A stretch of DNA of 45,727 bases from assembly GCA_902825995.1 (NCBI GenBank), contig CADEDE010000017.1, positions 1 through 45,727 of the forward strand, in the 5' to 3' direction. Under the pieces are notes generated by a model, which saw only the letters and a list, made by a program, of their open reading frames with translations, searched no databases and was not told where the DNA came from. Numbering within the stretch: the stretch's first letter is position 1; each line of letters starts with the position of its first letter. Position numbers and translations under genes: made by a program. Positions 4,264 through 18,694 of this stretch are shown in pieces. Origin of the DNA: an uncultured Burkholderiales bacterium (GTDB lineage Bacteria; Pseudomonadota; Gammaproteobacteria; Burkholderiales; Burkholderiaceae_C).

Positions 4264-4485
4264 TCACGATACGCCCTGAGTATCGATTGCGCGGATGTTC
4301 TGGGCCTGGTCTCCCTTGGGGCCTTGCACCAGGTCGTAGGACACCCGAGCGCCTTCTTTCAGACTGCGAAAGCCGTCCATGGCAATGCAGGAAAAATGCG
4401 CGAAGACGTCGGCGCCACCACCCTCGGGCTCGATGAAGCCGAAGCCCTTGGCGTCGTTGAACCACTTGACCTTGCCGAGCGTCAT
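4264..4485 (-). CDS. Cold-shock domain protein (CspA family)
   Basis: A 73-residue single OB-fold RNA/DNA-binding protein of the cold-shock family. It starts [11 protein letters not shown] and has the RNP1-type motif KGFGFI at residues 13-18 and an RNP2-type motif DVFAHF at 26-31, where Ala replaces the usual Val. The C-terminal part ([18 protein letters not shown]...QNIRAI) is also typical. ATG 4485 is preceded by a strong aggagggg site 4-5 bp upstream. Such proteins melt RNA secondary structure as chaperones. The roughly 170-base stretch between dsbB and this start could act as its own leader. Whether it is cold-induced cannot be told from the sequence. Confidence 0.9.
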
Positions 4486-4657
4486 ATTGCCCCTCCTGCC
4501 GCGGCGCAACGCGGCCGCAAAGCGGTGGCCATTGTGGAGACGATGGCAATGGTGCGTCAAGATGCCTGGAACGGCTGCTTCTCATGATGAGGCTGTACCT
4601 CACCGGTTTTCGCGTTCGGAACGAGAAACCCGGATTGGTTTCGTCGATGTCGTTCAT
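4486..4657 (-). other. Leader region of the cold-shock gene with a possible coupled small frame
   Basis: ATG 4657 on the minus strand overlaps the dsbB stop codon (ATGA) and has a GAGGAG site 3 bp upstream, so translation probably restarts here (MNDIDETNPGF...). In this frame there is no stop until 4238, running out of frame through the cold-shock gene. A one-base shift after PGF would instead give a short protein ending near 4557 ([17 protein letters not shown]...). Either it is a frameshifted small gene or the start is fortuitous. Confidence 0.25.
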
Positions 4658-5142
4658 CGTCTCCTCGAGACAGATCGCAACAGCAAGCTGATTGCTGCCG
4701 CCTCGATGGCGACCAACAGCGCCAGGCTCCAGAACTCGTAGGGCACACCGTACAGGTTCACCGCCGCATCGGCGCAGGTCGCGCGGGCCTCGAAGATTTC
4801 GGGCAGCAGGCCGGGCAGGCCGCTGGCATTCATGATGCGATCGGCCAGGGTCAGGTTGCATGAGGTGCTGGCGGCGGCGACGAAATGCTGCCAGAGCACA
4901 GTGGCGATGCCCGCCGCGCTCAGCGCCAGCAGGCCCAGGGCAACGCCGCGTTGGCCCGCCACCGAACGCCAGGCCAGGCCCAGCACCGCAAGCAGCGCGA
5001 TCAGTACGAAGATCAGCCGCTGCAAGACGCACCACGGGCAGGGCTGCATCTCGAAGACATGCTGCGAGACGAGGGCCGCGCCAACGGCGGTCAGCGATAT
5101 GGCCGCGATGCCGCCGAGCCAAACGCGCGCGGAAATCGTCAT
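4654..5142 (-). CDS. dsbB: Disulfide bond formation protein B (DsbB)
   Basis: A 162-residue inner-membrane quinone reductase that reoxidises periplasmic DsbA. Four hydrophobic segments are visible, at about residues 9-26, 40-58, 66-84 and 135-156. Both functional cysteine pairs are present: C35-P-W-C38 in the first periplasmic loop, and C95 (TSCNL) with C123 (ATCADA) in the second. Length matches the family. The ATG at 5142 overlaps the stop codon of the upstream RidA-family gene (ATGA), so the two are probably translated together, although no functional link is known. A possible small frame overlaps its stop codon. Confidence 0.92.
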   Translation of the reverse strand: MTISARVWLGGIAAISLTAVGAALVSQHVFEMQPCPWCVLQRLIFVLIALLAVLGLAWRSVAGQRGVALGLLALSAAGIATVLWQHFVAAASTSCNLTLADRIMNASGLPGLLPEIFEARATCADAAVNLYGVPYEFWSLALLVAIEAAAISLLLRSVSRRR

Positions 5143-5603
5143 GCCACTTCTGCGATCGCCTCGATTTCGACGCAGGCGCCGAGCGGAATCTGCGCCACCC
5201 CGAAGGCGCTGCGCGCATGCGCGCCGATCTCGGGGCCGAAGACTTCGCCGAGCAAGACCGAGCAGCCGTTGCTCACCAGGTGCTGTTCGGTGAAGGTCGG
5301 CGTGCTGTTGACCAGGCTCATGAGCTTGACGATGCGCTTCACGCGGCCGAGGTCGCCGCCGCAGGCGGCGGCCAGCGTACCCATCAGGTCGATGGCGATG
5401 GCGCGCGCTGCCGCCTGGCCTTCTTCGGTGCCCATCGTCAGGCCGAGCTGGCCGACCCAGGGTTTGCCGTCTCGCTTGGCGATATGGCCCGATAGAAAGA
5501 CCAGGTTGCCGCTGCGGGCGAAGGGCACATAGGCGGCGGCCGGCACGGCCAATGGCGGCAGTGCGATGCCAAGCGATTGGAGGCGTTCGGCGATGGTTGT
5601 CAT
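5139..5603 (-). CDS. RidA family protein (YjgF/YER057c/UK114 superfamily)
   Basis: A 154-residue protein of the RidA superfamily. The founding member hydrolyses reactive enamine/imine intermediates from pyridoxal-phosphate enzymes. Family features seen are FARSGNLVFLSGHIA near residue 30, GQAAARAIAIDLMGTLAAA in the middle helix, and the C-terminal block HARSAFGVAQIPLGACVEIEAIA. The latter keeps the conserved Arg-containing segment and final strand of the substrate pocket. It is longer than classical RidA (about 130 residues), so it may be a paralogous subgroup with a different substrate. It starts at ATG 5603, diverges from comEC with a 50-bp gap, and overlaps dsbB by 4 bases. Confidence 0.85.
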   Translation of the reverse strand: MTTIAERLQSLGIALPPLAVPAAAYVPFARSGNLVFLSGHIAKRDGKPWVGQLGLTMGTEEGQAAARAIAIDLMGTLAAACGGDLGRVKRIVKLMSLVNSTPTFTEQHLVSNGCSVLLGEVFGPEIGAHARSAFGVAQIPLGACVEIEAIAEVA

Positions 5604-5653
5604 GGTGTTCGGTGCGGCGATTGAGAGGGTCGCGACGATCCTACACTGCACCG

Positions 5654-8095
5654 ATGGCAGCTCATGATGCGTGGGGTTTGCGCGCTGCGGCGCTGGCGTT
5701 GGCCGGCATCGGTGGCGCGGCCCTGCAATTGCAGCAGGCGGCGTTGTGGTCGCCATCGAGCTATGCCGCACTGCTGGCCTTTGCGGCGGTGATGTGGGCT
5801 GCCGCCTATTTCAGGCCACGAGCGAGCTGGGTTGTTGTGCCCACCGCGCTGGCCTGCGCGTTATTCGCCGCCACCGGCCTGCGCGCCGGCCTGCGCTTGG
5901 CCGACGCGCTGCCGGCGGTGCTCGAAGGCCAGGACATCGTCGTCACCGGCGTGGTCGCGGCGCTGCCGCGCCAGTCGCCCGACGGCGTTCGTTTCAGCTT
6001 CGAGGTCGAGAGCGCCACCCACGGAGGCGCAGCAGTTGCGGTGCCGAGCCTGATCTCGCTCGGCTGGTACCGCGGCTGGGATGGCGATGCGCTGATCGCG
6101 GCGCCGTTCGAGGCCCTGCGCGCCGGCCAGCGCTGGCGCTTCACGGTGCGCCTGAAAGCGCCGCACGGCACGCTCAATCCGCACGGCTTCGATTTCGAGC
6201 TGTGGTTGTTCGAGCAGGGCCTCCGCGCCAGCGGCGATGTGCGCGCTACCCAGCGCAGCCCGGCGCTACGGCTGGCCGAGGGCGCCGCGCACCCGATCGA
6301 GCGCTTGCGCCAGCGCGTGCGTGAAGCGATCACGCTGCGCGTGGCCGATGCGCGGTCTGCCGGTGTGCTGGCGGCACTGGCGGTCGGCGACCAGGCGGCC
6401 ATCGAACGCAGCGACTGGGAGTTGTTCCGCGCCACCGGCATCGCGCACCTGGTCAGCATCAGCGGCCTGCATGTGACGATGTTCGCGTGGCTCGCGGGTG
6501 CGCTGATCGGCTGGCTGTGGCGGCGCAGCGTGCACGCCATGCTCGCCGTTCCCGCTCCGGTGGCCGCACGCTGGGGCGGCGTGGTGTGCGCCGCGCTGTA
6601 CGCGCTGCTGGCCGGTTGGGGCGTACCGGCACAGCGCACGGTGTGGATGCTGGCTACCGCAGCGTTGCTGGCGTCAGTCGGTGTGCGCTGGCCGTGGCCT
6701 CTGGTTCTGCTCGCTGCTGCGCTGGTGGTCACCGTGTTCGATCCGTGGGCGTTGTTGCAGCCGGGTTTCTGGCTGTCGTTTGCGGCGGTTGGCATGCTGA
6801 TGGCGTCGGCCCCGGTGCAGCAGGACGAGCCGGTTGTGCGAAGCCGGCTTCAGGCCCTCATGCAGAGCCTGCGCCACGGCCTGCGTACGCAGGTGGTCGC
6901 CACGCTCGGGCTGGCGCCGCTGACGCTGGTATTTTTCCAGCAGCTGTCGGTCGTCGGTTTCATCGCCAACCTGGTCTCGATCCCGCTGGTCACCTTGTTG
7001 ATCACGCCTTTGGCGCTGCTCGGCGTCTTGCTGCCCGCGTTGTGGCATGCGGGCGCCTGGCTCGTGCAGGGCCTCGCGCAAGGGCTCGGCTGGCTCGCCG
7101 CATGGCCGGGATCGGTGTGGACCGCTGGCGTGGCGCCAGGGTGGGCGCAGCTGGCCGGATTGTTCGGCGCGCTGCTGCTGGTGCTGCCGCTGCCGTGGCG
7201 CGTGCGTGTGCTGGCGCTGCCCTTGATGCTGCCGCTCGTGGTGCCGTCGCCGCCGCGTCCGGCTGAGGGCGCGATGCACATCACGGTGGCCGACGTCGGC
7301 CAGGGCAGCGCGGTGCTGGTACGCACCCGCAAGCACCTGCTGGTTCACGATGCCGGCCCACAGTACTCGCGCGACAGCGAAGCCGGCACGCGGGTGCTGC
7401 TGCCGCTGCTGCGTGCCCAGGCCACGCGCCGCATCGACCTGTTGATGCTCAGCCATCGTGATACCGACCACGTCGGCGGTGCCGCGGCACTGCTCGCGGC
7501 CTTGCCGGTGACGGCCCTGTGGTCGTCGCTCGGTGCCTCGCATCCGCTGCGCAGCGCCAGCGTGCCGCACACCCGCTGCGAGGCTGGCCAGCACTGGGTC
7601 TGGGACGGCGTGAGCTTCACGGTGCTGCATCCGCGCGCCGACGACTATCGGCGGCAGGATCCGAAACCCAATACGATGAGCTGCGTGCTGCGTGTGGCCG
7701 ACGCCCAGGGGCGCAGCCTGCTGCTCAGCGGCGATATCGAAGCCGAGCAGGAACAGCGTCTGGTCCAGGATCGCGCCGCCGCGCTGGCCAGCCGCGTACT
7801 GGTGGTGCCGCATCACGGCAGCAAGACGTCATCGAGCGCGGTTTTTCTCGACGCGGTGGCGCCGCAAGTCGCGGTTGTGCAAGCCGGCTACCGCAACCGC
7901 TTCGGCCACCCGGTGCCGTCGGTGATGGCGCGCTACGCCGAGCGCGGTATCGCGGTGCAACGCACGGATGCCTGCGGGGCCTGGGTCTGGCCGTCCGACG
8001 GCGGCGATCTGGCAGGGTACTGCGAGCGCGACGAACGCGCGCGATACTGGCACCATCGCGCCCGTGGCGGTGGCGCGGAACTTGCGACCCGCTGA
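5654..8095 (+). CDS. comEC: DNA internalisation competence protein ComEC/Rec2
   Basis: An 813-residue polytopic inner-membrane channel for uptake of single-stranded DNA in natural transformation. The N-terminal part has hydrophobic segments and an OB-like soluble region (GQDIVVTGVVAALPRQ, about 100-220). The competence domain follows (ATGIAHLVSISGLHVTMFAW, about 265-285) with many membrane helices to about 530. The C-terminal metallo-beta-lactamase-like domain begins VADVGQGSAVLVRT and keeps SHRDTDHVGG, LLSGDIE and VPHHGSKTSSS. Those motifs supply the metal ligands of the proposed nuclease site. ATG 5654 is chosen because it precedes the first hydrophobic segment. Upstream open frame overlaps ridA antisense and is probably not coding. 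No pilus or other com genes lie nearby. Confidence 0.92.
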   Translation: MAAHDAWGLRAAALALAGIGGAALQLQQAALWSPSSYAALLAFAAVMWAAAYFRPRASWVVVPTALACALFAATGLRAGLRLADALPAVLEGQDIVVTGVVAALPRQSPDGVRFSFEVESATHGGAAVAVPSLISLGWYRGWDGDALIAAPFEALRAGQRWRFTVRLKAPHGTLNPHGFDFELWLFEQGLRASGDVRATQRSPALRLAEGAAHPIERLRQRVREAITLRVADARSAGVLAALAVGDQAAIERSDWELFRATGIAHLVSISGLHVTMFAWLAGALIGWLWRRSVHAMLAVPAPVAARWGGVVCAALYALLAGWGVPAQRTVWMLATAALLASVGVRWPWPLVLLAAALVVTVFDPWALLQPGFWLSFAAVGMLMASAPVQQDEPVVRSRLQALMQSLRHGLRTQVVATLGLAPLTLVFFQQLSVVGFIANLVSIPLVTLLITPLALLGVLLPALWHAGAWLVQGLAQGLGWLAAWPGSVWTAGVAPGWAQLAGLFGALLLVLPLPWRVRVLALPLMLPLVVPSPPRPAEGAMHITVADVGQGSAVLVRTRKHLLVHDAGPQYSRDSEAGTRVLLPLLRAQATRRIDLLMLSHRDTDHVGGAAALLAALPVTALWSSLGASHPLRSASVPHTRCEAGQHWVWDGVSFTVLHPRADDYRRQDPKPNTMSCVLRVADAQGRSLLLSGDIEAEQEQRLVQDRAAALASRVLVVPHHGSKTSSSAVFLDAVAPQVAVVQAGYRNRFGHPVPSVMARYAERGIAVQRTDACGAWVWPSDGGDLAGYCERDERARYWHHRARGGGAELATR

Positions 8096-8125: not shown

Positions 8126-11100
8126 TTGTCCATCCACGTTGCCCTGAACCACGTCACGCATTACCGCTACGACCGGCGGGTGAAACTGTCGCCGCAGGTG
8201 GTGCGCCTGAAACCTGCGCCGCATTGCCGCACCAAGATCCTGGCCTATTCGCTGCGCATCGAGCCCGAACCGCATTTCATCAACTGGCAGCAGGATCCGT
8301 TCGCCAATCACCTGGCGCGCCTGGTTTTCCCCGAACCGACCACCGGGTTCAAGGTCACGGTCGATCTGGTCGCCGAGATGGCGGTCTATAACCCCTTCGA
8401 TTTTTTCCTCGAACCCGGCGCCGAGAAATTTCCGTTCAGCTACGGCGCCGAGCTGGCGCACGAGTTGGCGCCATATCTGATGAAGGGCGAAGCCACGCCG
8501 CGCCTGCATACGCTGTTGCAAAGCATCGACCTCACGCCGCAGCGCACGATCGACTTCCTGGTCGGCCTGAACCAGCGCCTGCAAAAGGATGTGCGCTACC
8601 TGATCCGCATGGAGCCGGGCGTGCAGACGCCCGAAGTCACGCTCACGAATGCCAGCGGTTCCTGCCGCGACAGCGGCTGGCTGATGGTCCAAGTATTGCG
8701 CCATCTGGGGCTGGCGGCGCGCTTCGTCTCCGGCTACCTGATCCAGTTGAAGCCGGATGTCAAAGCCCTCGACGGCCCCAGCGGCACCGAAGTCGATTTC
8801 ACCGACCTGCACGCCTGGTGCGAGGTCTATCTGCCCGGCGCGGGCTGGATCGGCTTCGACCCGACCTCGGGCCTGATGGCCGGCGAGGGCCATATCCCCG
8901 TGGCCTGCACGCCCGAGCCGTCGAGCGCGGCGCCGGTCAGCGGCGCGGTGGATGAATGCGAAGTCTCATTCGAGCACCAGATGGCGGTCACGCGCATCCA
9001 TGAATCGCCGCGCGTCACCCTGCCCTATACCGACGCTCAATGGCAGGCCATCGTCACGCTCGGCCACGCGGTCGATGCGCAATTGCAGGCCGGCGATGTG
9101 CGCCTGACCATGGGCGGCGAGCCGACCTTCGTTTCGGTCGATGACCGCGAAGGCGCCGAGTGGAATACCGACGCGCTGGGCCCGACCAAGCGCGGCCTGG
9201 CGCAGGGCCTGACGCAGAAACTGCGCGAGCACTACGGCGCCGGCGGCTTTCTGCATTTCGGCCAGGGCAAGTGGTACCCCGGCGAGCAATTGCCGCGCTG
9301 GGCGCTGTCGATCGCCTGGCGCGCCGACGGGCTGCCCTGCTGGAACGATGCCTCGCTGTTTGCCGATGAGCGCGAGGCGCATCGCTATACGAGCGCCGAC
9401 GCGGCGCGCTTGCTGAGCGCATTGACAGCCAAGCTCGGCCTGGACGCGAAATTCATCCAGCCGGCCTACGAGGACACCTGGTACTACCTGTGGCGCGAGC
9501 GGCGCTTGCCGGTCAATGTCGATCCCTTCGACTCGAAGCTCGATGACGAGCTGGAGCGCGCGCGCTTGCGCCGGGTTTTCGACCAGGGCCTGTCGCATAT
9601 CGTCGGCCATGTCCTGCCCCTGGCGCGCGCCGATGGTGTTGGCGCGCAGGGGCCGCGCTGGCACACGGGCGCCTGGTACCCGCGCGACGGGCGTCTGTAT
9701 TTGCTCCCCGGCGATTCGCCGATGGGCTATCGGCTGCCGCTGGATTCGTTGCCGTGGGCGAAGAAGTCGGACGTGCAGCATTTGATTGCGCGCGACCCGT
9801 TCGCGGCGCGAGAGCTTTTGCCGGCGCGCGCCCTCACCCCAGCCCTCTCCCAACGGGAGAGGGGGTCATCCAATTCAAACTCACTCCCTCTCCCTCAGGG
9901 AGAGGGTAGGGGTGAGGGCCACGCGGAGAAAGGAAACCCCCAGCGCTTCACCAGCGCCGCCGACATCATCCGCACCGCCCTGTGCGTCGAAGTCCGCGAC
10001 CCGCTACGCATGAGCGGCCCGAAAGCCGAGGCCCAGAGCAAGGCGGAAAAACGCGGCGTGCTCTACATCTTCATGCCGCCGCTGGCCGCGCTGGACGATT
10101 ACCTCGAACTCCTCGCCGCCATCGAAGCCACCTGCGCCGAGCAAAAACTGAAGATCGTTCTCGAAGGCTACCCGCCGCCGCGCGATCCGCGCCTGAAGCT
10201 GCTGCAGGTCACACCCGACCCGGGCGTCATCGAAGTCAATATCCACCCGGCGCACAACTGGAGCGAGCTCGTCGAGCACACCGAATTCCTCTACGAGGCC
10301 GCGCACCGCACGCGCCTGTCGAGCGAGAAATTCATGCTCGACGGCCGCCACACCGGCACCGGCGGCGGCAATCATTTCGTCCTCGGCGGCGCCACGCCCG
10401 CCGACAGCCCCTTCCTGCGCCGGCCCGATCTGCTGGCCAGCCTGCTCGCCTACTGGCACAACCACCCGAGCCTGTCCTATCTGTTCTCGGGCATGTTCAT
10501 CGGCCCGACCAGCCAGGCCCCGCGCATCGACGAATCGCGGCACGACCAGGTTTATGAAATCGAGATCGCGCTGAACGAGCTCGAGCGCCAGATGAAGGCG
10601 CGAGGCGACGCCGTGCCGCCGTGGCTGATCGACCGCGCGCTGCGCAATCTGCTGATCGATGCCAGCGGCAATACCCACCGCAGCGAGTTCTGCATCGACA
10701 AGCTGTATTCGCCCGATGGCCCCACCGGCCGCCTGGGCCTCTTGGAATTGCGCGCCTTCGAGATGCCGCCCCATGCGCGCATGAGCCTGGCGCAACAGTT
10801 GCTGCTGCGCGCGCTGGTGGCCTGGTTCTGGCGCACGCCGTATAAAGGCCGCGGCGCCACGCGCCTGACACGCTGGGGCACCGGCCTGCACGACCGCTTC
10901 CTGCTGCCGAGCTTCGTGCAGATGGATTTCGACGATATGATGGCCGATCTGCAAGGCGCGGGTCTTGCCTTCGACGCGGCCTGGTTCGCGCCGCATTTCG
11001 AATTCCGCTTCCCACGCATCGGCGAAATCGCCGTGGCCGACGTGCAGCTTGCGCTGCGCAATGCGCTCGAGCCCTGGCATGTGATGGGCGAGGAAGGCGC

Positions 11101-11548
11101 CCCCGGCGGCACCGTGCGCTATGTCGATTCGACGCTGGAGCGGATCGAGGTCAAGGCCACGGGCCTGAACGGCAACCGGCATGTGGTCACGGTCAACGGC
11201 CGCGCATTGCCGCTGCAGGCCACCGGCCGCGTCGGCGAATTCGTCTGCGGCGTGCGCTATCGCGCCTGGGCCGCGCCGTCGTCGCTGCACCCGACCATCA
11301 AGGCCCACGCGCCGCTGAGCTTCGACCTCGTCGATACCTGGTCCGAGCATTCGCTGGGCGGCTGCCGCTACCACGTGGCCCACCCCGGCGGGCTCAACCA
11401 CGAAGACTTCCCGGTCAATGCCTATACGGCCGAAAGCCGGCGCCTGGCGCGCTTCTCGCCGCTCGGCCACACGCCGGGCCGGATGGTGGTCAAGCGCGCC
11501 GTGCCGAGCCGGGAATTCCCCTGCACGCTGGATTTGCGCCTCGGCTAG
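8126..11548 (+). CDS. Transglutaminase-like protein with C-terminal DUF2126 domain
   Basis: A 1140-residue protein. Residues 1 to about 270 form a bacterial transglutaminase-like N-terminal and core domain (starts SIHVALNHVTHYRYDRRV). The catalytic triad is visible: C180 in GSCRDSGW, H229 in DLHAWCEVY and D245 in GFDPTSG. The rest is the large uncharacterised DUF2126 domain (TMGGEPTFVSVDDREG near 330; HTGTGGGNHFVLGGATPADSPF near 750). The start is TTG 8126, supported by a ggag site 7 bp upstream and by agreement with the family N-terminus. It opens a five-gene cluster with ATP-grasp and alpha-E proteins. Such clusters are predicted to make or process peptides or amides, but no reaction has been shown to my knowledge. 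Odd feature: residues about 569-598 (TPALSQRERG...PQGEGRGEG) are encoded by a dispersed palindromic repeat inserted in frame. Confidence 0.88.
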   Translation: MSIHVALNHVTHYRYDRRVKLSPQVVRLKPAPHCRTKILAYSLRIEPEPHFINWQQDPFANHLARLVFPEPTTGFKVTVDLVAEMAVYNPFDFFLEPGAEKFPFSYGAELAHELAPYLMKGEATPRLHTLLQSIDLTPQRTIDFLVGLNQRLQKDVRYLIRMEPGVQTPEVTLTNASGSCRDSGWLMVQVLRHLGLAARFVSGYLIQLKPDVKALDGPSGTEVDFTDLHAWCEVYLPGAGWIGFDPTSGLMAGEGHIPVACTPEPSSAAPVSGAVDECEVSFEHQMAVTRIHESPRVTLPYTDAQWQAIVTLGHAVDAQLQAGDVRLTMGGEPTFVSVDDREGAEWNTDALGPTKRGLAQGLTQKLREHYGAGGFLHFGQGKWYPGEQLPRWALSIAWRADGLPCWNDASLFADEREAHRYTSADAARLLSALTAKLGLDAKFIQPAYEDTWYYLWRERRLPVNVDPFDSKLDDELERARLRRVFDQGLSHIVGHVLPLARADGVGAQGPRWHTGAWYPRDGRLYLLPGDSPMGYRLPLDSLPWAKKSDVQHLIARDPFAARELLPARALTPALSQRERGSSNSNSLPLPQGEGRGEGHAEKGNPQRFTSAADIIRTALCVEVRDPLRMSGPKAEAQSKAEKRGVLYIFMPPLAALDDYLELLAAIEATCAEQKLKIVLEGYPPPRDPRLKLLQVTPDPGVIEVNIHPAHNWSELVEHTEFLYEAAHRTRLSSEKFMLDGRHTGTGGGNHFVLGGATPADSPFLRRPDLLASLLAYWHNHPSLSYLFSGMFIGPTSQAPRIDESRHDQVYEIEIALNELERQMKARGDAVPPWLIDRALRNLLIDASGNTHRSEFCIDKLYSPDGPTGRLGLLELRAFEMPPHARMSLAQQLLLRALVAWFWRTPYKGRGATRLTRWGTGLHDRFLLPSFVQMDFDDMMADLQGAGLAFDAAWFAPHFEFRFPRIGEIAVADVQLALRNALEPWHVMGEEGAPGGTVRYVDSTLERIEVKATGLNGNRHVVTVNGRALPLQATGRVGEFVCGVRYRAWAAPSSLHPTIKAHAPLSFDLVDTWSEHSLGGCRYHVAHPGGLNHEDFPVNAYTAESRRLARFSPLGHTPGRMVVKRAVPSREFPCTLDLRLG
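9831..9918. repeat. Palindromic REP-like repeat inside the DUF2126 coding frame
   Basis: An 88-bp element bounded by ccctcacccc (9831-9840) and its exact complement ggggtgaggg (9909-9918). It contains two hairpins of the type ccctctccc-N-gggagaggg. The same family occurs at 14142-14286. Such elements are normally intergenic. Here it is translated as roughly 30 low-complexity residues without breaking the frame. Confidence 0.8.
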
Positions 11549-11557
11549 GGTTTGGCG

Positions 11558-14119
11558 GTGTCCAGCCTGCCTGCATCCGAAGCTTCAGCAACGCCACCGG
11601 CCTTCGAGCCGGCCGAGCCCGGCGCCGCCGCGCATTGGGACGAATGCCGCGACGAGCGCGGCGCGCTGCGCCCCGCGTGGCAACGCTTCTTCGATGCCAC
11701 GCCTTCGCTGCAAGACGACGCCGCAGCGGCCTTCGCGCGCCAGCGCGAATCGATCGCCCAGCAGATTCGCGCCGACGGCGTCACCCACAACCTGCACGCC
11801 CCCGAAGGCACGCCCGCCGGTGCGGCGCGGCCCTGGTCGCTCGAAGCGCTGCCGCTGATCGTCGAGGCGGCCGATTGGGCGGCGATCGAGCGCGGCGTGC
11901 TGCAGCGCGCGCGCCTGCTGGGCGCGATGCTGGCCGATCTCTACGGCCCGCAGCGCTTGCTGCACGCGGCGCTGCTGCCGCCCGCCCTGGTCTTTCGCCA
12001 CAGCGGCTATCTGCGCCCGCTGCACGGCGTGGCGCCTGTCGGCGGCATGCACCTGCATATCGTGGCTTTCGATCTCGCGCGCGGGCCGGATGGGCGCTGG
12101 TGGGTGATTTCGCAGCGCACCCAATCGCCGTCGGGCCTGGGCTATGTATTGCACAACCGCCTGATCGTCTCGAAGCTCTTCCCCGAAGCCCTGCGCGAGC
12201 TGCGTGTGCAGCACATCGCTTCGGGCTACCGGCGGCTGCTGGATACCGTGCAGCAGCAGGCCGGCGAAGTGGCCGCGCGCCTGGGCGACGGCAATACCCC
12301 GCGCGCGGCCCTGCTGACCCCCGGCCCCTACAGCGAGACCTATTTCGAACACGCCTACCTGGCCCGCCACCTCGGCCTGCCGCTGGTGGAAGGGGCCGAC
12401 CTGACGGTCCGCGGCGAGCGCCTCTTTCTGCGCACAGTCGAGGGCCTGCAACCGCTGCACGCGCTGCTGCGCCGCCTCGACGACGACTTCTGCGATCCGC
12501 TCGAGCTGCGCCCCGATTCGGCCCTGGGCGTGCCCGGCCTGGTGCAGGTGCTGCGTGCGCGCAACCTGGTGCTGGCGAATGCGCTGGGCAGCGGCTTTCT
12601 GGAATCCAGCGCGGTGCAGGGCTTCCTGCCGGCAATCTCGAAGGCGCTGCTCGGCGAAGAACTTCAACTGCCGTCATTGCCAACCTGGTGGTGCGGCGAA
12701 GCGGCGGCCTGGGCCGGCGTGCGCGGCGATCTCGCGGGCCGCGTGCTGCGCCCGGCATTTCCGCGCGGCGGCGAAGGCGCGCAACGCATCGACGCCCAGG
12801 TCATCGAAGCCGTGCAGCGGCGCATCGATGCCGACCCCGATGCCTTCAGCGTGCAGGGTCATCTGCCGCCCTCGCACGCGGCGCTGGCCCTCCCCGATGG
12901 CCGGCTTTCGCCGCGCCCGGCCCTGCTGCGCGTGTATGCCATCGCCGATGCCGCCGAGCGCTGGCATCTGCTGCCCGGTGGCCTGACGCGGGTGGCCACC
13001 AGCGCCCCGCTGTCGGTTTCGATGGCCCAGGGCGGCACCAGCCTGGATACCTGGGTGCGCACGCAAGACGCAGTCGAAGCCGTGCCGGTGCTGCCGCAAC
13101 GCCTGGGCCTGGCCGAGCTGGCCGCGCGGCGCCCGCCGGTGGCCAGCCGCACGGCGGAGAACCTGTTCTGGCTCGGCCGCTATACCGAGCGCTGCGAGCA
13201 GGCGGTGCGCCTGGCGCGCGCCGCGCTCGATCTGGTCGATGGCGACGACGATGTGCCCGCGCCTTTGCTCGCCGCGCTCTCGCAACTGGTCAAATCCCAG
13301 GGCCTGGTGCCCGCGGGCACGCCGGGTGCCGAGCGCAGCACCGCTCTGTTCGAGCGCAACCTGCTGGCCGCGCTGGTGCAGCGCGACGCCGGCATCGGCT
13401 TCAATCTGCAAGCCCTGGCGCGCGGGGTCGGCGCGCTGCGCGACCGGCTCTCGCCCGAACAATGGGGCCTGGTGCGGCGCATGGGTGAAAGTTTTCAGCG
13501 CCAGTTCGCGCGCCGCGACGCCGTGCCCGGCACCCTGCAGGCCGTGCCCGCCTTGCAGCGCCTGACCCTGCAGCTCGCGGCACTCACCGGCGCGCAGAGC
13601 GACCGCATGACGCGCGACCACGGCTGGCGCCTGTTGTCGGTCGGGCGCCTAGTCGAGCGCCTGGCGGGCATGGCCGCCAGCCTGGCCACCCTGCTGGCGG
13701 CCTTCGATGCGCGCGGCGGCGCCGGCGCCACCACCGAATTGCTGCTCGAACTCTTCGACAGCCGCATCACCTTCCGCGCCCGCTACCAGCGCCATGAGGA
13801 CCTGCTCGCGCTGGCCGACCTGCTGGTCATCGACGACAGCAACCCGCGCGCCTTCGCCGGCACCCTGCGCCGCCTGCGCACCGAACTCGGCAAGCTGCCG
13901 GGCAGCGAAGAAGCCCGCGCCGCATTGCGCGAGCGCCTGCCGGCGCAGGGCGCGGGGCTCACCCTGGCCGAGTTGGCGGACTGCGACGATGAAACCCTGC
14001 GCGAGCGCCTGATCGCGCTCGCCCGGCGCCTGCAAGGCGATGCCTTGGCGCTCAGTGACGCCATCGGCCAGCGTTATTTCGCCCATGCCGAGGGCGGCGA
14101 CGACATGCAGCGGGTCTAG
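11558..14119 (+). CDS. Circularly permuted ATP-grasp / alpha-E fusion protein
   Basis: A protein of about 853 residues. Residues about 60-490 resemble the circularly permuted type 2 ATP-grasp family (PGPYSETYFEHAYLARHLGL, RRLDDDFCDPLELRPDS, LLPGGLTRVA). From about 525 an alpha-E helical domain follows (ASRTAENLFWLGRYTERCEQ). The same two domains are separate proteins at 15233-17658. Compared with that paralogue, the ATP-binding region has changed: the VVKEVHGAGGYGM stretch is replaced by GRVLRPAFPRGG (Lys to Arg at about residue 398), and SKDTWV-like becomes SLDTWV. It may therefore be catalytically altered and act as a partner subunit. GTG 11558 is chosen for the taggg site 7 bp upstream; TTG 11552 is alternative but too close. 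It follows the DUF2126 gene by 9 bases. Confidence 0.85.
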   Translation: MSSLPASEASATPPAFEPAEPGAAAHWDECRDERGALRPAWQRFFDATPSLQDDAAAAFARQRESIAQQIRADGVTHNLHAPEGTPAGAARPWSLEALPLIVEAADWAAIERGVLQRARLLGAMLADLYGPQRLLHAALLPPALVFRHSGYLRPLHGVAPVGGMHLHIVAFDLARGPDGRWWVISQRTQSPSGLGYVLHNRLIVSKLFPEALRELRVQHIASGYRRLLDTVQQQAGEVAARLGDGNTPRAALLTPGPYSETYFEHAYLARHLGLPLVEGADLTVRGERLFLRTVEGLQPLHALLRRLDDDFCDPLELRPDSALGVPGLVQVLRARNLVLANALGSGFLESSAVQGFLPAISKALLGEELQLPSLPTWWCGEAAAWAGVRGDLAGRVLRPAFPRGGEGAQRIDAQVIEAVQRRIDADPDAFSVQGHLPPSHAALALPDGRLSPRPALLRVYAIADAAERWHLLPGGLTRVATSAPLSVSMAQGGTSLDTWVRTQDAVEAVPVLPQRLGLAELAARRPPVASRTAENLFWLGRYTERCEQAVRLARAALDLVDGDDDVPAPLLAALSQLVKSQGLVPAGTPGAERSTALFERNLLAALVQRDAGIGFNLQALARGVGALRDRLSPEQWGLVRRMGESFQRQFARRDAVPGTLQAVPALQRLTLQLAALTGAQSDRMTRDHGWRLLSVGRLVERLAGMAASLATLLAAFDARGGAGATTELLLELFDSRITFRARYQRHEDLLALADLLVIDDSNPRAFAGTLRRLRTELGKLPGSEEARAALRERLPAQGAGLTLAELADCDDETLRERLIALARRLQGDALALSDAIGQRYFAHAEGGDDMQRV

Positions 14120-14141
14120 GTGGCAGCGTGGCTGGCGAACG

Positions 14142-14286
14142 CCCTCACCCCAACCCTCTCCCAACGGGAGAGGGCGTCATTCATTCACCTCTCCCAACGG
14201 AAGAGGGGGCCATGCAAAGTCGCCCGACCGACGAGGGAACGATGCGCGCTCCCTCTCCCCCGCCGGGGGAGAGGGCTGGGGTGAGG
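14142..14286. repeat. Composite REP-like palindromic repeat over a gene start
   Basis: It starts ccctcaccccaaccctctcccaa (trimmed here) at 14142 and ends ggggtgagg at 14278-14286, so its outer ends are complementary. Inside are three hairpins: ccctctcccaacgggagaggg at 14155-14175, a diverged copy near 14190-14210, and ccctctccccc...gggggagaggg near 14251-14275. It fills the space between the ATP-grasp/alpha-E gene and the next transglutaminase gene. It probably supplies that gene's ribosome binding site. Confidence 0.75.
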
Positions 14287-15195
14287 AGGCCGCGCAGCGC
14301 GCTGCTCGAAATCGAGCACCTCACGCATTACGCCTACGCCGCGCCCGTCGATCTGGCGCAGCACCTGGCCTACCTGCGCCCGCGCGACGATGCGGCCCAG
14401 CAGGTCGAATCCTTCGAGCTGCGCATCGAACCCGCGCCGCTGCACCGGCGCGATGAAACCGACCGCCTGGGCAACGCCCGCTGCGCCTTCACCGTGAGCG
14501 CGCCGCACCGCGCGTTGAGCGCGCGCGCCACGAGCCGCGTGCGCGTCGGTGCCGATGAAAGCATCGACGCCGACGCCAGCCTGCCCTGGGAAGCCGTGCG
14601 CGAGCGCCTGCGCTACGTGGCCGGCGCGGCCTTCGAGCCGGCCAGCGAATTTCGCTATGCCTCGCCCTTCATCCCGGCGCTGCCGGCCCTGCGCGAACTG
14701 GCCCTGCCCTCGTTCACGCCCGCCCGGCCGGTGGCGCTGGCGGCCATCGATCTGATGGCCCGCATCCACGCCGCATTCACCTACCGCAGCGCCAGCACCG
14801 AGGTCGATACGCCGCTGGCCGATGTGCTGGCCACGCGCGAGGGCGTATGCCAGGATTTCGCCCACACCGCGATCGGCGCACTGCGCTCGATGGGCCTGGC
14901 CGCGCACTACATCAGTGGCTACCTGCTGACCACGCCGCCCGATGGTGCGCATGGCGCACCGCTGCTGGGCGCCGACGCCTCGCACGCCTGGCTCGCCGTG
15001 TGGTGCCCGCAGACGCACGCTTCACCCGCGCGCTGGCTCGAACTCGACCCGACCAACAACTTGCTGCCGGGCCAGGCGCATATTCGCCTGGCGATCGGTC
15101 GGGATTACGGCGACGTGACGCCCCTGCGCGGCGTGATTCGCGGCGGCGGCGAGCACAAACTCGAAGTCCGCGTCCGGACCCGGCCACTGGCGTGA
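14281..15195 (+). CDS. Transglutaminase-like cysteine peptidase family protein
   Basis: A protein of about 304 residues with a bacterial transglutaminase N-terminal domain (LLEIEHLTHYAYAAPVDLAQ) and a core domain. The triad is C190 (GVCQDFAH), H235 (SHAWLAVW) and D256 (LDPTNN), counting from GTG 14281. Such domains are thiol enzymes that cleave or rearrange amide bonds; the substrate is unknown. It lacks the DUF2126 extension of its larger relative at 8126. The start is uncertain because the upstream frame is open through the palindromic repeat; ATG 14242, ATG 14212 and GTG 14128 are possible. GTG 14281 is preferred because family homology begins a few residues later and gagaggg lies just upstream. 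The repeat-derived N-terminus would otherwise be low-complexity. Confidence 0.85.
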   Translation: MRRPRSALLEIEHLTHYAYAAPVDLAQHLAYLRPRDDAAQQVESFELRIEPAPLHRRDETDRLGNARCAFTVSAPHRALSARATSRVRVGADESIDADASLPWEAVRERLRYVAGAAFEPASEFRYASPFIPALPALRELALPSFTPARPVALAAIDLMARIHAAFTYRSASTEVDTPLADVLATREGVCQDFAHTAIGALRSMGLAAHYISGYLLTTPPDGAHGAPLLGADASHAWLAVWCPQTHASPARWLELDPTNNLLPGQAHIRLAIGRDYGDVTPLRGVIRGGGEHKLEVRVRTRPLA

Positions 15196-15232
15196 CAAGC
15201 GCATGGCAAAAGAATTGCGAGGAGCCACTGGG

Positions 15233-16681
15233 ATGAGCACAGCTTTCGACGAGATGTACGCCGCGCCCGACGCGGTGCGCGCGCATTACCGCGGCTACGC
15301 CGAGTGGTTGGCCGCGCAGCCGGCCGAGCTGATGCGCTCGCGCCGCGAAGAGGCGGAGGTGATCTTCCGCCGCGTCGGCATCACCTTTGCCGTTTATGGC
15401 GCGCGCGACGAGGATGCGAAGTCGGGCAATCAGGGCACCGAGCGCCTGATCCCCTTCGACCTCATTCCGCGCATCATCCCGGCCGACGAATGGCGCCAGA
15501 TGCAGCGCGGCCTGGCCCAGCGCGTGACGGCGCTGAACCGCTTCATCCACGACGTCTATCACGACCAGGAGATCCTGAAGGCCGGCATCGTCCCGGCCGA
15601 GCAAATCCAGCGCAATGCGCAGTTCCGCCCCGAGATGGTCGGGGTGGATGTGCCCGGCAATATCTATTCGCAGATCGCCGGCATCGATATCGTTCGCGCC
15701 GCCGACGCCACGGGCGCGGGCACCTACTACGTGCTCGAGGACAACCTGCGCGTGCCCAGCGGCGTGAGCTATATGCTCGAAAACCGCAAGATGACGATGC
15801 GCCTTTTCCCCGAGCTGTTCAGCCGGCACCGCATCGAGCCGGTGGCGCATTACCCCGACTTGTTGCTGGAGACTTTGCGCTCGCTGGCCCCGGCCAGCGC
15901 GAATGAGCCGACGGTCGTCGTGCTCACCCCCGGCATGTACAACAGCGCCTATTTCGAACACGCCTTCCTGGCCCAGCAGATGGGCGTCGAGCTGGTCGAG
16001 GGCCAGGATCTGTTCGTACGCGAGGGCTTCGTCTTCATGCGCACCACGCAGGGCCCGCGCAAGGTGGATGTGATCTACCGCCGTGTCGATGACGATTTTC
16101 TCGACCCGAAAGCCTTCCGCCCCGACAGCACGCTGGGCTGCGCCGGCCTGCTGGATGTCTATCGCGCCGGCAACGTGACCTTGTCGAACGCCATCGGCAC
16201 CGGGGTGGCCGACGACAAGAGCATCTACCCCTATGTGCCGAAGATGATCGAGTTCTATCTCGGCGAAAAACCGATCCTGCAAAACGTGCCGACGCATCTG
16301 TGCCGCGACCAGGCCGGCTTGGCCTATGTGCTCGCGCATTTGAGCGAACTGGTGGTCAAGGAAGTCCACGGTGCCGGCGGCTACGGCATGTTGGTCGGGC
16401 CGGCGGCGACAAAGCGGGAGATCGAGGAATTCCGCGCCGCACTGCTCGCCAACCCGGGCAACTACATCGCGCAGCCGACGCTGGCGCTCTCGACCTGCCC
16501 GACGTACGTCGAGTCGGGCGTCGCGCCGCGGCATATCGACCTGCGGCCCTTCGTGCTCTCGGGCAAGAGCGTGCAGATGGTGCCCGGCGGCCTGACCCGC
16601 GTGGCATTGAAGCAAGGCTCCCTGGTCGTCAATTCGTCGCAGGGCGGCGGCACCAAGGACACCTGGGTGCTCGAGGTTTAG
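15233..16681 (+). CDS. Circularly permuted type 2 ATP-grasp protein
   Basis: A 482-residue protein of the DUF404/DUF407 (circularly permuted ATP-grasp) family, predicted to ligate a carboxylate to an amine using ATP. Family blocks seen are AVYGARDEDAKSGNQGTERLIPFDLIPRI (shown in part: PFDLIPRI), VLEDNLRVPSGVSYMLENRK, LTPGMYNSAYFEHAFLAQQM, RRVDDDFLDPKAFRPDS and LVVKEVHGAGGYGMLVGP. The last holds Lys376 and a Gly-rich loop. PGGLTRVALKQGSLVVNSSQ and GGGTKDTWV close the protein. ATG 15233 has a gaggag site about 10 bp upstream. It is followed 11 bp later by the alpha-E gene, the usual partner. Unlike the fused paralogue upstream, it keeps the expected ATP-binding residues. Confidence 0.9.
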   Translation: MSTAFDEMYAAPDAVRAHYRGYAEWLAAQPAELMRSRREEAEVIFRRVGITFAVYGARDEDAKSGNQGTERLIPFDLIPRIIPADEWRQMQRGLAQRVTALNRFIHDVYHDQEILKAGIVPAEQIQRNAQFRPEMVGVDVPGNIYSQIAGIDIVRAADATGAGTYYVLEDNLRVPSGVSYMLENRKMTMRLFPELFSRHRIEPVAHYPDLLLETLRSLAPASANEPTVVVLTPGMYNSAYFEHAFLAQQMGVELVEGQDLFVREGFVFMRTTQGPRKVDVIYRRVDDDFLDPKAFRPDSTLGCAGLLDVYRAGNVTLSNAIGTGVADDKSIYPYVPKMIEFYLGEKPILQNVPTHLCRDQAGLAYVLAHLSELVVKEVHGAGGYGMLVGPAATKREIEEFRAALLANPGNYIAQPTLALSTCPTYVESGVAPRHIDLRPFVLSGKSVQMVPGGLTRVALKQGSLVVNSSQGGGTKDTWVLEV

Positions 16682-16692
16682 GGAGGTTTCAA

Positions 16693-17658
16693 ATGTTGTC
16701 GAGAACCGCCGATCACCTGTTCTGGATGGCGCGCTATATGGAGCGCGCCGAAAATACCGCGCGCATGCTGGATGTGAACTACCAGATGTCGCTGCTGCCG
16801 CAAACGGCCCAAGAGGCCGAGCAGGGCTGGCGTTCGCTGCTCGGCATCTCCGAGTTGACGGCGCTGTTCGGCGAGCGCCACGCCGAGGTCAGCGCGCGCA
16901 ATGTCATGGATTTCATGGTCAGCGATGCGGGCAATGCGTCGAGCATCGCTTCGTGCGTGCGCGCGGCGCGCGAAAACGCGCGCGCGGTGCGCGGCGCGCT
17001 GACCACCGAGGTGTGGGAAACGCAGAACCAGACCTGGCTCGAATTCAACCGCCTGCTCGCCAGCGGCAATTTCCAGCGCGACCCGAGTTCGCTCTTCGAG
17101 TGGGTCAAATTCCGCTCGCATCTTTCGCGCGGCGTGACCGTGGGCACCATGCTGCAGGACGAAGCCCTGCACTTCCTGCGCATCGGCACCTTCCTCGAGC
17201 GCGCCGACAATACCGCGCGCCTGCTGGACGTGAAATTCCAGAGCCTGGCCGGCGACTATTTCGGTGCCGGCGCGGGAACCGCCGAAGCCCAGGAAGTTGA
17301 CTTCTACCACTGGAGCGCGGTACTGCGCTCGGTCAGCGGCTTCGAGGTCTATCGCAAGGTCTATCGCAACGTGATCCGGCCCGACAAGGTGGCCGAATTG
17401 CTGATCCTGCGCCCTGACATGCCGCGCTCCTTGGCTGCCTGCATGAACGAGGTGGTGGCCAACCTGACCCATGTGGCCAATGCGCAGAGCGGCGAAACCC
17501 TGCGCCGCGCCGGCCGCCTGCGCAGCGACTTGCAATACGGCCGCATCGACGAGATCCTGGCCACCGGGTTGCACGCCTACCTGACGCAATTCCTCGACCG
17601 CGTCGGTGATCTGGGCGTGGGCATCAGCCGCGACTTCCTGGTGCCGATGGCGGCGTAG
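16693..17658 (+). CDS. Alpha-E domain protein (DUF403)
   Basis: A 321-residue, almost entirely helical protein of the alpha-E family, named for its conserved glutamates. The N-terminus MLSRTADHLFWMARYMERAE and the internal repeat-like FLRIGTFLERADNTARLLDV are characteristic. The role is unknown; the family is nearly always encoded next to, or fused with, circularly permuted ATP-grasp proteins and is thought to be a partner subunit. ATG 16693 has a gggagg site directly after the stop of the ATP-grasp gene, so the two are surely co-expressed. It is the last gene of the transglutaminase/ATP-grasp cluster; dusA follows after 25 bp. Confidence 0.9.
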   Translation: MLSRTADHLFWMARYMERAENTARMLDVNYQMSLLPQTAQEAEQGWRSLLGISELTALFGERHAEVSARNVMDFMVSDAGNASSIASCVRAARENARAVRGALTTEVWETQNQTWLEFNRLLASGNFQRDPSSLFEWVKFRSHLSRGVTVGTMLQDEALHFLRIGTFLERADNTARLLDVKFQSLAGDYFGAGAGTAEAQEVDFYHWSAVLRSVSGFEVYRKVYRNVIRPDKVAELLILRPDMPRSLAACMNEVVANLTHVANAQSGETLRRAGRLRSDLQYGRIDEILATGLHAYLTQFLDRVGDLGVGISRDFLVPMAA

Positions 17659-17683
17659 GATCTTGCTCCCAGATCGAGGTCCG

Positions 17684-18694
17684 ATGAATCGACCCCCCAG
17701 TCCCTGGCGCCTGTGCGTCGCCCCGATGCTGGATTGGACGGATCGCCATTGCCGCGTATTCCATCGCCACATCACGCGCCATGCGCGGCTCTACACCGAG
17801 ATGGTCACCACCGGCGCGCTGCTGCATGGCGACGCGCCGCGGCATCTGGATTTCAGCGAGGCCGAGCACCCGGTGGCGTTACAGCTCGGTGGCAGCGAGC
17901 CGGCCGACCTGGCGGTCTGCGCCAAGCTCGCCGCGCAGTGGGGTTACGACGAAGTCAACCTCAATTGCGGCTGCCCGAGCGAGCGCGTGCAGCGCGGGGC
18001 CTTCGGTGCCTGCCTGATGGCCGAGCCCGCACTCGTGGCCGACTGCGTGAAGGCCATGCGCGACGCGACGCCGCTGCCGGTGACGGTGAAGCACCGCATC
18101 GGCATCGACCGCGAGGAGCGCTACGACTTCGTGCGTGATTTCGTCGGCACGGTGGCCGACCGGGGCGGTTGCGAGGTCTTCGTCGTGCACGCGCGCAACG
18201 CCTGGCTGAAAGGCCTGAGCCCGAAAGAGAACCGCGCGGTACCGCCGTTGCGCCACGAGTTCGTCTATCGCCTGAAGCGCGATTTTCCGGCGCTGACCAT
18301 CGTGCTCAACGGCGGTGTCACCGGCAACGACCAGATCGCCGAGCACCTGCGCCATGTCGATGGCGTGATGCTCGGCCGCGAGGCCTATCACCACCCCTGG
18401 CTGATGGCGCAATGGGACCGGCGCTTTCTCGGCGACGACGACGCTGCCGCGCCGACACGCGAGGGCGTCGAGGCTGCGATGGTCGAGTACATGACGGCGC
18501 TGGTGGCGCGTGGCATCGGCTGGCCGCATGCGGCGCGGCACATGCTGGGCCTGGTTCACGGCCTGCCCGGAGCGCGGCGCTGGCGCCAGGTGTGGAGCGA
18601 CCACCGGCTGAGAGACGCGGTGCCTGCGCGGGTGATGCAGCAGGCGCGGCAGGCGATGGCCGTGCGCAGTGCCGAAACCGAGGTGATTGGATGA
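17684..18694 (+). CDS. dusA: tRNA-dihydrouridine(20/20a) synthase DusA
   Basis: A 336-residue FMN enzyme that reduces uridines in the tRNA D-loop to dihydrouridine. The TIM-barrel start WRLCVAPMLDWTDRHCRVFH and YTEMVTTGALLHGD are typical of DusA. So are the active-site loop NLNCGCPSERVQRGAFGACL (catalytic Cys) and HARNAWLKGLSPKENR, which is specific to the DusA subgroup. VLNGGVT and DGVMLGREAYHHPWL bind the cofactor phosphate. ATG 17684 is preceded by a gagg site. It is close enough to the alpha-E gene (25 bp) to share its transcript, though no functional link is evident. Confidence 0.95.
   Translation: MNRPPSPWRLCVAPMLDWTDRHCRVFHRHITRHARLYTEMVTTGALLHGDAPRHLDFSEAEHPVALQLGGSEPADLAVCAKLAAQWGYDEVNLNCGCPSERVQRGAFGACLMAEPALVADCVKAMRDATPLPVTVKHRIGIDREERYDFVRDFVGTVADRGGCEVFVVHARNAWLKGLSPKENRAVPPLRHEFVYRLKRDFPALTIVLNGGVTGNDQIAEHLRHVDGVMLGREAYHHPWLMAQWDRRFLGDDDAAAPTREGVEAAMVEYMTALVARGIGWPHAARHMLGLVHGLPGARRWRQVWSDHRLRDAVPARVMQQARQAMAVRSAETEVIG

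Follow-up and report, generated by a model that had tools for sequence, protein, structure and literature searches.

We analysed a stretch of 45,727 nucleotides (nt; the window), contig CADEDE010000017.1 in the 2.82 Mb, 140-contig genome of an uncultured Burkholderiales bacterium (assembly GCA_902825995.1). Five genes, here called TD, AE, T, A and E (Table 1), occupy the + strand between comEC (5552-8095) and dusA (listed open reading frame [ORF] 17606-18694). We find that they form two units: a module TD-AE-T, whose fused ATP-grasp appears to be a degenerate ligase, and, behind it, a reduced Anbu module, A-E. A sigma-54-like site precedes TD, and similar sites are conserved in relatives. A preliminary description, made from the sequence, had recognized the five same-strand genes and their families, and both are confirmed by the ORFs and by Pfam. 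The genes are real and the cluster is not due to chance, since DUF2126 is common in both genome samples described below and the exact gene order recurs. In searches of the whole genome, Alpha-E, CP_ATPgrasp_2 and Bact_transglu_N each gave two matches, all inside the cluster, where a free circularly permuted ATP-grasp (15203-16681) and an alpha-E protein (16693-17658) are encoded together. Among the named loci returned, a set from which records very near this genome may be left out, TD is nearest to Rubrivivax, Ideonella and Aquabacterium (71-75% identity).

Two listed starts are doubtful. The real start of E is probably the ATG at 16693, which gives a protein of 321 amino acids (aa; 16693-17658). 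The listed start of T is probably too early, because its first 58 codons traverse a repeat element; alternative in-frame starts lie at 14212, 14242 and 14281, and the conserved portion begins at ~14302. If the listed starts are used, except for E (16693), successive genes are 3, 8, 7 and 11 nt apart.

Table 1. Features of the cluster, in coordinates of the window.
Feature	Positions	Strand	Description
TD	8126-11548	+	Transglutaminase-like domain plus DUF2126 putative amidoligase; 1140 aa, TTG start; Pfam Bact_transglu_N, Transglut_core and DUF2126 (1313 bits)
AE	11552-14119	+	Circularly permuted, apparently degenerate ATP-grasp fused to alpha-E; 855 aa; Pfam CP_ATPgrasp_2 (436) and Alpha-E (184)
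T	14128-15195 (listed start 14128)	+	Stand-alone transglutaminase-like protein, placed in the TD-AE-T module; 355 aa; Pfam Bact_transglu_N and Transglut_core
A	15203-16681 (start 15203 or 15233)	+	Free circularly permuted ATP-grasp; 492 aa; Pfam CP_ATPgrasp_2 (555)
E	listed ORF 16300-17658 (452 aa)	+	Free alpha-E with two ER-motif segments; Pfam Alpha-E (334)
Palindromic repeat element	14131-14287		Lies after AE and before the conserved portion of T; predicted to form a strong RNA hairpin
Sigma-54 -24/-12-like site, TGGCGCGGAACTTGCG	8071-8086	+	55 nt before the TTG start of TD, in the 3' end of comEC

We surveyed a family sample of 60 genomes (the window's own included), a phylum sample of 299 genomes and 140 fetched stretches of <=20 kb, which were chosen and are not random (141 with the window). 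DUF2126 (PF09899) occurs in 39/60 and 92/299 genomes of the two samples, alpha-E in 54/60 and 171/299, and Anbu (profile A1) in 50/60 and 115/299, while Peptidase_Mx occurs in 59 of the 299. Within the phylum sample, alpha-E accompanies DUF2126 in 92 of 92 genomes, Anbu in 113 of 115 and Peptidase_Mx in 58 of 59. CP_ATPgrasp_1 matches above the cut-off are found in the same 171 genomes as alpha-E, all 92 DUF2126 genomes among them; one more genome, with a sub-threshold match (1.8e-4), was left out of the count. The best of these matches in each of the 171 genomes has E <= 4.3e-131, compared with 1.9e-87 for the fused domain of the window. The best matches are far stronger than that of the fused domain, and all 92 DUF2126 genomes hold a free-type A as well. 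Their best alpha-E matches reach E <= 3.0e-70 in each genome, and those of fused domains in the family sample 4.0e-63 at most.

The gene neighbourhoods are variable around a common core. Of the 80 stretches with a TD (window included), TD and AE are adjacent in 72, AE and T in 70, and free A and E are present in 50; the other 30 have no A-E within <=20 kb, some of them being cut by contig ends. AE is missing from eight, and for some of these it lies elsewhere in the genome. Counting the window, 8/80 TD stretches have the order TD AE T A E (7/79 without it), as do 5/80 named loci, whose commonest patterns are E- A- TD+ AE+ T+ (20), TD AE T (18) and A E TD AE T (13). The survey bears out two earlier statements, the co-occurrence of these families and the presence of two linked units. 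Among the variant loci, one (L085) encodes DUF2126 as a 713-aa protein next to a separate transglutaminase, and two (L091 and L094) have TD next to a small module, with AE missing from the stretch.

The preliminary description had assigned the simple transglutaminase to the second module, with A and E, and this part of it did not survive the survey. A FastTree phylogeny of 128 single transglutaminases shows a split with support 0.968: of the 53 proteins encoded after a free E, 51 fall together, and the 62 encoded after AE all fall opposite them. The exceptions, in L093 and L114, reflect labelling and not the tree, since both transglutaminases adjoin a reversed AE. The window's T falls on the AE side and, by tree and synteny, is part of a TD-AE-T module, which leaves only A-E for the second module here. 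The Bact_transglu_N proteins of the genome are TD and the AE-type T only, and a search of it for a small-type transglutaminase after E found none. Of the 39 family-sample genomes with DUF2126, 26 (this one included) have exactly two Bact_transglu_N matches.

Anbu is encoded elsewhere in the genome. The single match to its profile (G000:C12:32952-33704, E 4.7e-108) is on contig C12, not in the cluster operon, and the protein has no Pfam match at 1e-3. The gene is directly downstream of mutS (L177, G000:C12:28500-38200, at 4360-7994), and of the five other Anbu stretches fetched, four hold a homologue of that MutS. Because T lies on the AE side, the usual transglutaminase is missing and Anbu is found elsewhere beside mutS, the second module is a reduced Anbu module (A-E) set behind the first. 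An anticorrelation between Anbu and the big, DUF2126-containing module was considered and rejected: the two co-occur positively in the phylum sample (58/92 vs 57/207), and the family sample (35/39 vs 15/21) gives no significance. Peptidase_Mx, a zinc-ribbon metallopeptidase, was found in 10/141 stretches (L070, L078, L082, L084, L101, L106, L113, L129, L141 and L145). Besides Anbu, it is a third candidate for a protease of the system. As a substitute for Anbu it was rejected, being present in 16/58 genomes without Anbu versus 42/113 with it (p 0.24).

We show that the fused ATP-grasp lacks many residues that its free relatives keep. Across 105 free A proteins of 400-620 aa (7 of 112 A-labelled ORFs were dropped for length), 81 positions are invariant, and the window's A, which is one of the set, by alignment keeps the residues conserved across all free relatives. 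The 72 fusions retain on average 57% of these 81 residues, and they do so unevenly. W97, Q106, R107, D117, E252, D269, D301 and several glycines are retained in >97% of fusions. R90, N181, S189, Y292, D337, D338, D446, P449, N477 and S479 are retained in none, E179, R183, V188 and K339 in one, and H444 in two; of the loop residues, G392 is kept in 9, Y394 in 4 and G395 in 5. E179, N181 and R183 form an E-x-N-x-R motif, and AE of the window lacks residues shared by its free relatives, E-x-N among them. In glutathione synthetases, E-x-N carries Mg, and a lysine and a glycine loop bind ATP.

Because residues conserved in every free A are lost in the fusions, AE is best explained as a dead ligase that has retained part of the substrate surface. 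Two linked ATP-grasp ligation steps, as had been proposed, are difficult to reconcile with this pattern, and two parallel ligations would be unlikely, since the fused ATP-grasp is without the invariant residues of free A. The related proposal of a hetero-complex may hold in a more specific form, with AE as a pseudo-ligase partner of an active A-E. An AlphaFold model of AE (predicted local distance difference test [pLDDT] 86.8) matches 3n6x and eukaryotic-type glutathione synthetases. By sequence, the sole match of AE is 3n6x, to the ATP-grasp portion, and A matches the same entry at E 9e-217; 3n6x is annotated as a putative glutathionylspermidine synthase. Alignment of A to the synthetase part of Escherichia coli GspS gave nothing usable. 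We regard the evidence for the architecture and for the residue pattern as strong. In E, the ER-motif segments 16741-16786 and 17197-17242 are 89% alike over 46 nt, which suggests that the alpha-E domain is internally duplicated.

The catalytic triads of both transglutaminases are conserved: Cys180-His229-Asp245 of TD in 80/80 homologues, and Cys241, His286 and Asp307 of T in 125, 128 and 127 of 128, respectively. Since the triads are intact, TD and T are expected to perform hydrolysis or acyl transfer. Of the thiol-ligation chemistry suggested earlier, nothing was found beyond these transglutaminase cysteines. DUF2126 had been named correctly in the preliminary description, which gave it no role. 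Pfam lists it as a ‘putative amidoligase’, and it has conserved residues among homologues. The best Protein Data Bank (PDB) match of its model is a glutamine synthetase (GS) homologue (E 0.016); GS homologues are among the best matches, as is Dop (E 0.37), and the model is weakly like 4hpp and GS-like ligases, including gamma-glutamyl-methylamide synthetase (E 0.64). These likenesses are no more than suggestive of a GS-like fold. A second ligase of the system would probably be the DUF2126 domain rather than the fused ATP-grasp.

No regulator had been noted for the cluster. We find a sigma-54-like site before TD, and NtrC control of relatives has been published. The window's site has two mismatches to TGGCAC-N5-TTGCW and one to the commonest form among relatives, TGGCGC-N5-TTGCT. 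Within <=350 nt upstream of TD, 41 of the 80 loci searched (the window and 79 named loci; L191 was too short) have a site with <=1 mismatch, versus 7/1520 random stretches from the same loci. Forty sites (78 loci, with L186 and L257 left out) comprise 26 distinct 16-mers with 23 distinct spacers, and 36 of them lie 49-112 nt before the start, a distance similar to that in the window. Base-shuffled upstream sequences have sites at 0.13%. The reverse strand of the same regions carries sites in 8/78, plausibly promoters of divergent A-E genes. Sites also precede A in 15/52 cases within TD stretches and, where TD is absent, in 20/59 (control 8/1083), spread over several orders and classes. None of 72 AE genes has one. 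Controls for these counts give 0.7-2.2%. The genome encodes rpoN. Scans for sigma-70 promoters and terminators stayed at chance level.

Published expression data, drawn here from passages of open-licence papers, concern relatives. The B. cenocepacia genes I35_5080-83 are joint sigma-54/NtrC targets (-6.0 to -9.4 in an ntrC mutant; PMC5491218), and a one-mismatch site lies near the start of the A ORF in the B. cenocepacia record (L263). Nitrogen-limitation control has been reported for the Anbu operon of P. putida, with PP2685-2687 up 6.6- to 11.1-fold (PMC3325844) and PP_2686-2688 up 11- to 15-fold (PMC7801951). In marine metagenomes, domains of the cluster are linked with urea metabolism (PMC3597751). 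A Caulobacter NtrC preprint was set aside, hvyA being the sole transglutaminase mentioned in the passages available (PMC10274813). The sigma-54 link has good support for relatives in the window's family and moderate support for the window itself.

Inverted repeat copies (CCCTCACCCCARCCCTCTCCC) are paired at 9831-9918, a part of the TD reading frame that encodes a DUF2126 linker modelled with low confidence, and at 14142-14287, between AE and T, where the predicted hairpin is strong (z of -6). The window holds four copies, and shuffled sequences hold none. The element at 14131-14287 could possibly act as an attenuator. An Rfam scan at the gathering threshold returned one tRNA only, outside the cluster. 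Among neighbouring genes, a RidA/YjgF-like protein of ~155 aa (cluster c6, e.g., in L045) was found in 23/141 stretches, nearly all from the window's family; the name is our own reading, with Ribonuc_L-PSP matches among the neighbours.

Gene content, the module boundary, residue loss, co-occurrence with A-E and promoter conservation in relatives are observed here by computation. We infer that the locus is a sigma-54-driven, NtrC-activated operon whose enzymes, when nitrogen is limiting, make and break a conjugate held by an amide bond (peptide or isopeptide), a proposal that we consider evenly poised between right and wrong. Under nitrogen limitation, sigma-54 with NtrC as activator would transcribe the operon. 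Free A, with its partner alpha-E, would convert a carboxylate into an acyl phosphate and join it to an amine; phosphate release from ATP has been reported for a Yersinia bercovieri homologue of A (PMC6376114). TD might combine a second, GS-like ligase (DUF2126) with a cysteine amidase or acyltransferase domain, and T would be a second cysteine hydrolase or transferase. AE, a putatively dead copy of A joined to alpha-E, probably binds the substrate of A or the A-E pair and couples it to TD and T. The likely peptidase, acting on the product or on tagged proteins, is Anbu, encoded elsewhere. The presumptive parts of this proposal are the ligase activity of DUF2126, the part played by AE, regulation of the window's own operon and an amide conjugate that serves nitrogen recycling.

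Several observations count against it. The assignment of lost AE residues as ATP or Mg ligands depends on glutathione-synthetase chemistry, and some losses are mild: D337 becomes Glu in 68/72 fusions, and 36 and 33 fusions still have D180 and K386, respectively. AE is not universal, and two DUF2126 genomes (G095 and G123) carry a single alpha-E, of the free type. The DUF2126 model has a pLDDT of 70 and no match below E 0.001, and its top 50 matches include TRAP subunits and antibody fragments. A site with two mismatches, the quality of that in the window, occurs in 157/6513 window stretches (2.4%). In the unnamed sample, sites with <=1 mismatch precede TD in 18/80 loci, comprising 18/40 from the same family and 0/40 from outside, so that for TD the pattern is shown only within the family. 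The loci are related by descent and are not independent. NtrC-like palindromes are mildly enriched (21/56 at spacing 7 vs 15% in the control), with four spacings tried. In P. putida, an rpoN mutant also shows PP_2686-2688 up 14- to 20-fold, and PP_2685 (Anbu) is nearly flat in the wild type (1.12; PMC7801951). In the passages available on the Y. bercovieri protein, YbAnbu pull-downs found no specific partner from its operon (PMC6376114).

A possible, though tentative, alternative is a small-molecule route without a protein tag, modelled on glutathionylspermidine or gamma-glutamyl-amine pathways, in which an amine nitrogen source such as a polyamine is first attached to a carrier of glutamyl or glutathione-like type, and the conjugate is hydrolysed afterwards. 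The fold that the ATP-grasp part of AE shares with glutathione and glutathionylspermidine synthetases, the closeness of A to 3n6x and the weak likeness of DUF2126 to 4hpp and GS-like ligases, gamma-glutamyl-methylamide synthetase among them, are all consistent with such a route, as are the putrescine/spermidine and urea genes in the NtrC regulon of B. cenocepacia (PMC5491218). However, no family of transporters or of amine dehydrogenases recurs next to the modules; among ABC ATPases, the most widespread cluster is found in 15/141 stretches. When 109 of 239 neighbour candidates from TD-less stretches were scanned with Pfam, without a control, no clear group of nitrogen genes emerged; the matches included ABC ATPases (8), LysR regulators (4), GATase (3), amidase (2) and OTCase (2). 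The route also leaves the association with the proteasome-like Anbu and Peptidase_Mx unexplained. That association, with Anbu and Peptidase_Mx nearly confined to alpha-E genomes (113/115 and 58/59), would be expected if DUF2126 and A tagged proteins with a small peptide under nitrogen starvation, the transglutaminases removed or edited the tag, and Anbu or Peptidase_Mx degraded the products and recycled amino acids. A GS-like ligase with a proteasome homologue would parallel pupylation, which aids nitrogen-starved M. smegmatis (PMC8223512), and Dop is among the weak fold matches of DUF2126. We nevertheless judge a Pup-like modification quite unlikely, given that no conserved small tag gene was found (3152 short ORFs within 3 kb, with no group in >4 stretches), that 58/171 alpha-E genomes are without Anbu and that, in the passages available, Anbu peptidase activity was not detected (PMC6376114). 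An independent proteobacterial counterpart of pupylation, in which DUF2126 and the ATP-grasp, with a pseudo-ATP-grasp as scaffold, put a non-ribosomal peptide on proteins under nitrogen starvation and Anbu or zinc peptidases recycle them, is improbable.

The two modules could also be independent neighbouring systems, one of them perhaps not co-expressed owing to the strong hairpin between AE and T. The 30/80 TD stretches without A-E, some of them cut by contig ends, and the repeat element itself (z -6) fit this view. We consider it unlikely: free-type A and alpha-E occur in all 92 DUF2126 genomes, A and E are present in 50/80 TD stretches, and sigma-54-like sites occur upstream of both TD and A. 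That both ATP-grasps are active, in two successive or parallel ligations as first described, could draw on the fold kept by the fused domain, on its retention of a mean 57% of the A-invariant residues (R107, E252, D269 and D301 included) and on K386, which persists in 33/72 fusions. With E179, N181, D338, K339, D446 and N477 kept in <=1/72 fusions and G392 in 9, it is very improbable. The amide-conjugate operon with a pseudo-ligase AE is our preferred reading.

A free-type ATP-grasp and alpha-E occur together in 171/299 sampled genomes of the phylum, yet the literature searched (passages of open-licence papers) contains no report of a product, as the preliminary description had also stated, or of degeneracy in the fused ATP-grasp. 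Even for Anbu, the best-studied partner, no function was known according to passages of a 2021 paper (PMC8665760). Our results point to candidates for the active ligase and for the pseudo-enzyme component, to nitrogen limitation as the condition of interest and to a set of genes to be considered together.

The system is of a widespread and previously predicted kind. Amidoligase peptide-synthesis systems, with a predicted association of the families of this cluster, are said to have been set out by Iyer et al. in 2009; set against those systems, the present analysis tests whether the fused ATP-grasp is degenerate and where one module ends and the other begins. The permuted ATP-grasp fold is shared with E. 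coli GspS and eukaryotic-type glutathione synthetase, although no usable sequence alignment with GspS was obtained. Pupylation (PafA, Dop and the proteasome) is alike in its GS-like ligase, here weakly supported, its proteasome homologue and its link to nitrogen starvation, and this comparison concerns the way of working only; unlike pupylation, no tag gene was found among short ORFs within 3 kb. The Anbu operon (Anbu, transglutaminase, alpha-E and ATP-grasp; P. putida PP_2685-2688 and Y. bercovieri) has the same free A and E families, the likeness in Y. bercovieri being taken from passages of its published description. In P. putida, PP_2687-2688 are presumably the alpha-E and ATP-grasp proteins. 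They are called hypothetical in passages of the paper on them (PMC7801951). Unlike that operon, the A-E of the window has no adjacent Anbu, no small-type transglutaminase was found in the genome search, and an extra TD-AE-T module is present. Inactive membrane transglutaminase systems (PMC12239564, with a RimK-like ATP-grasp, and PMC12096838) were set aside as different, from the passages available. The cluster is like I35_5080-83 (BCAM1233-1236) of B. cenocepacia, which comprises ATP-grasp, alpha-E, transglutaminase and large transglutaminase genes (PMC5491218). The B. cenocepacia record reads A-E-T-TD-AE-T, with two single transglutaminases, and the window reads TD-AE-T-A-E.

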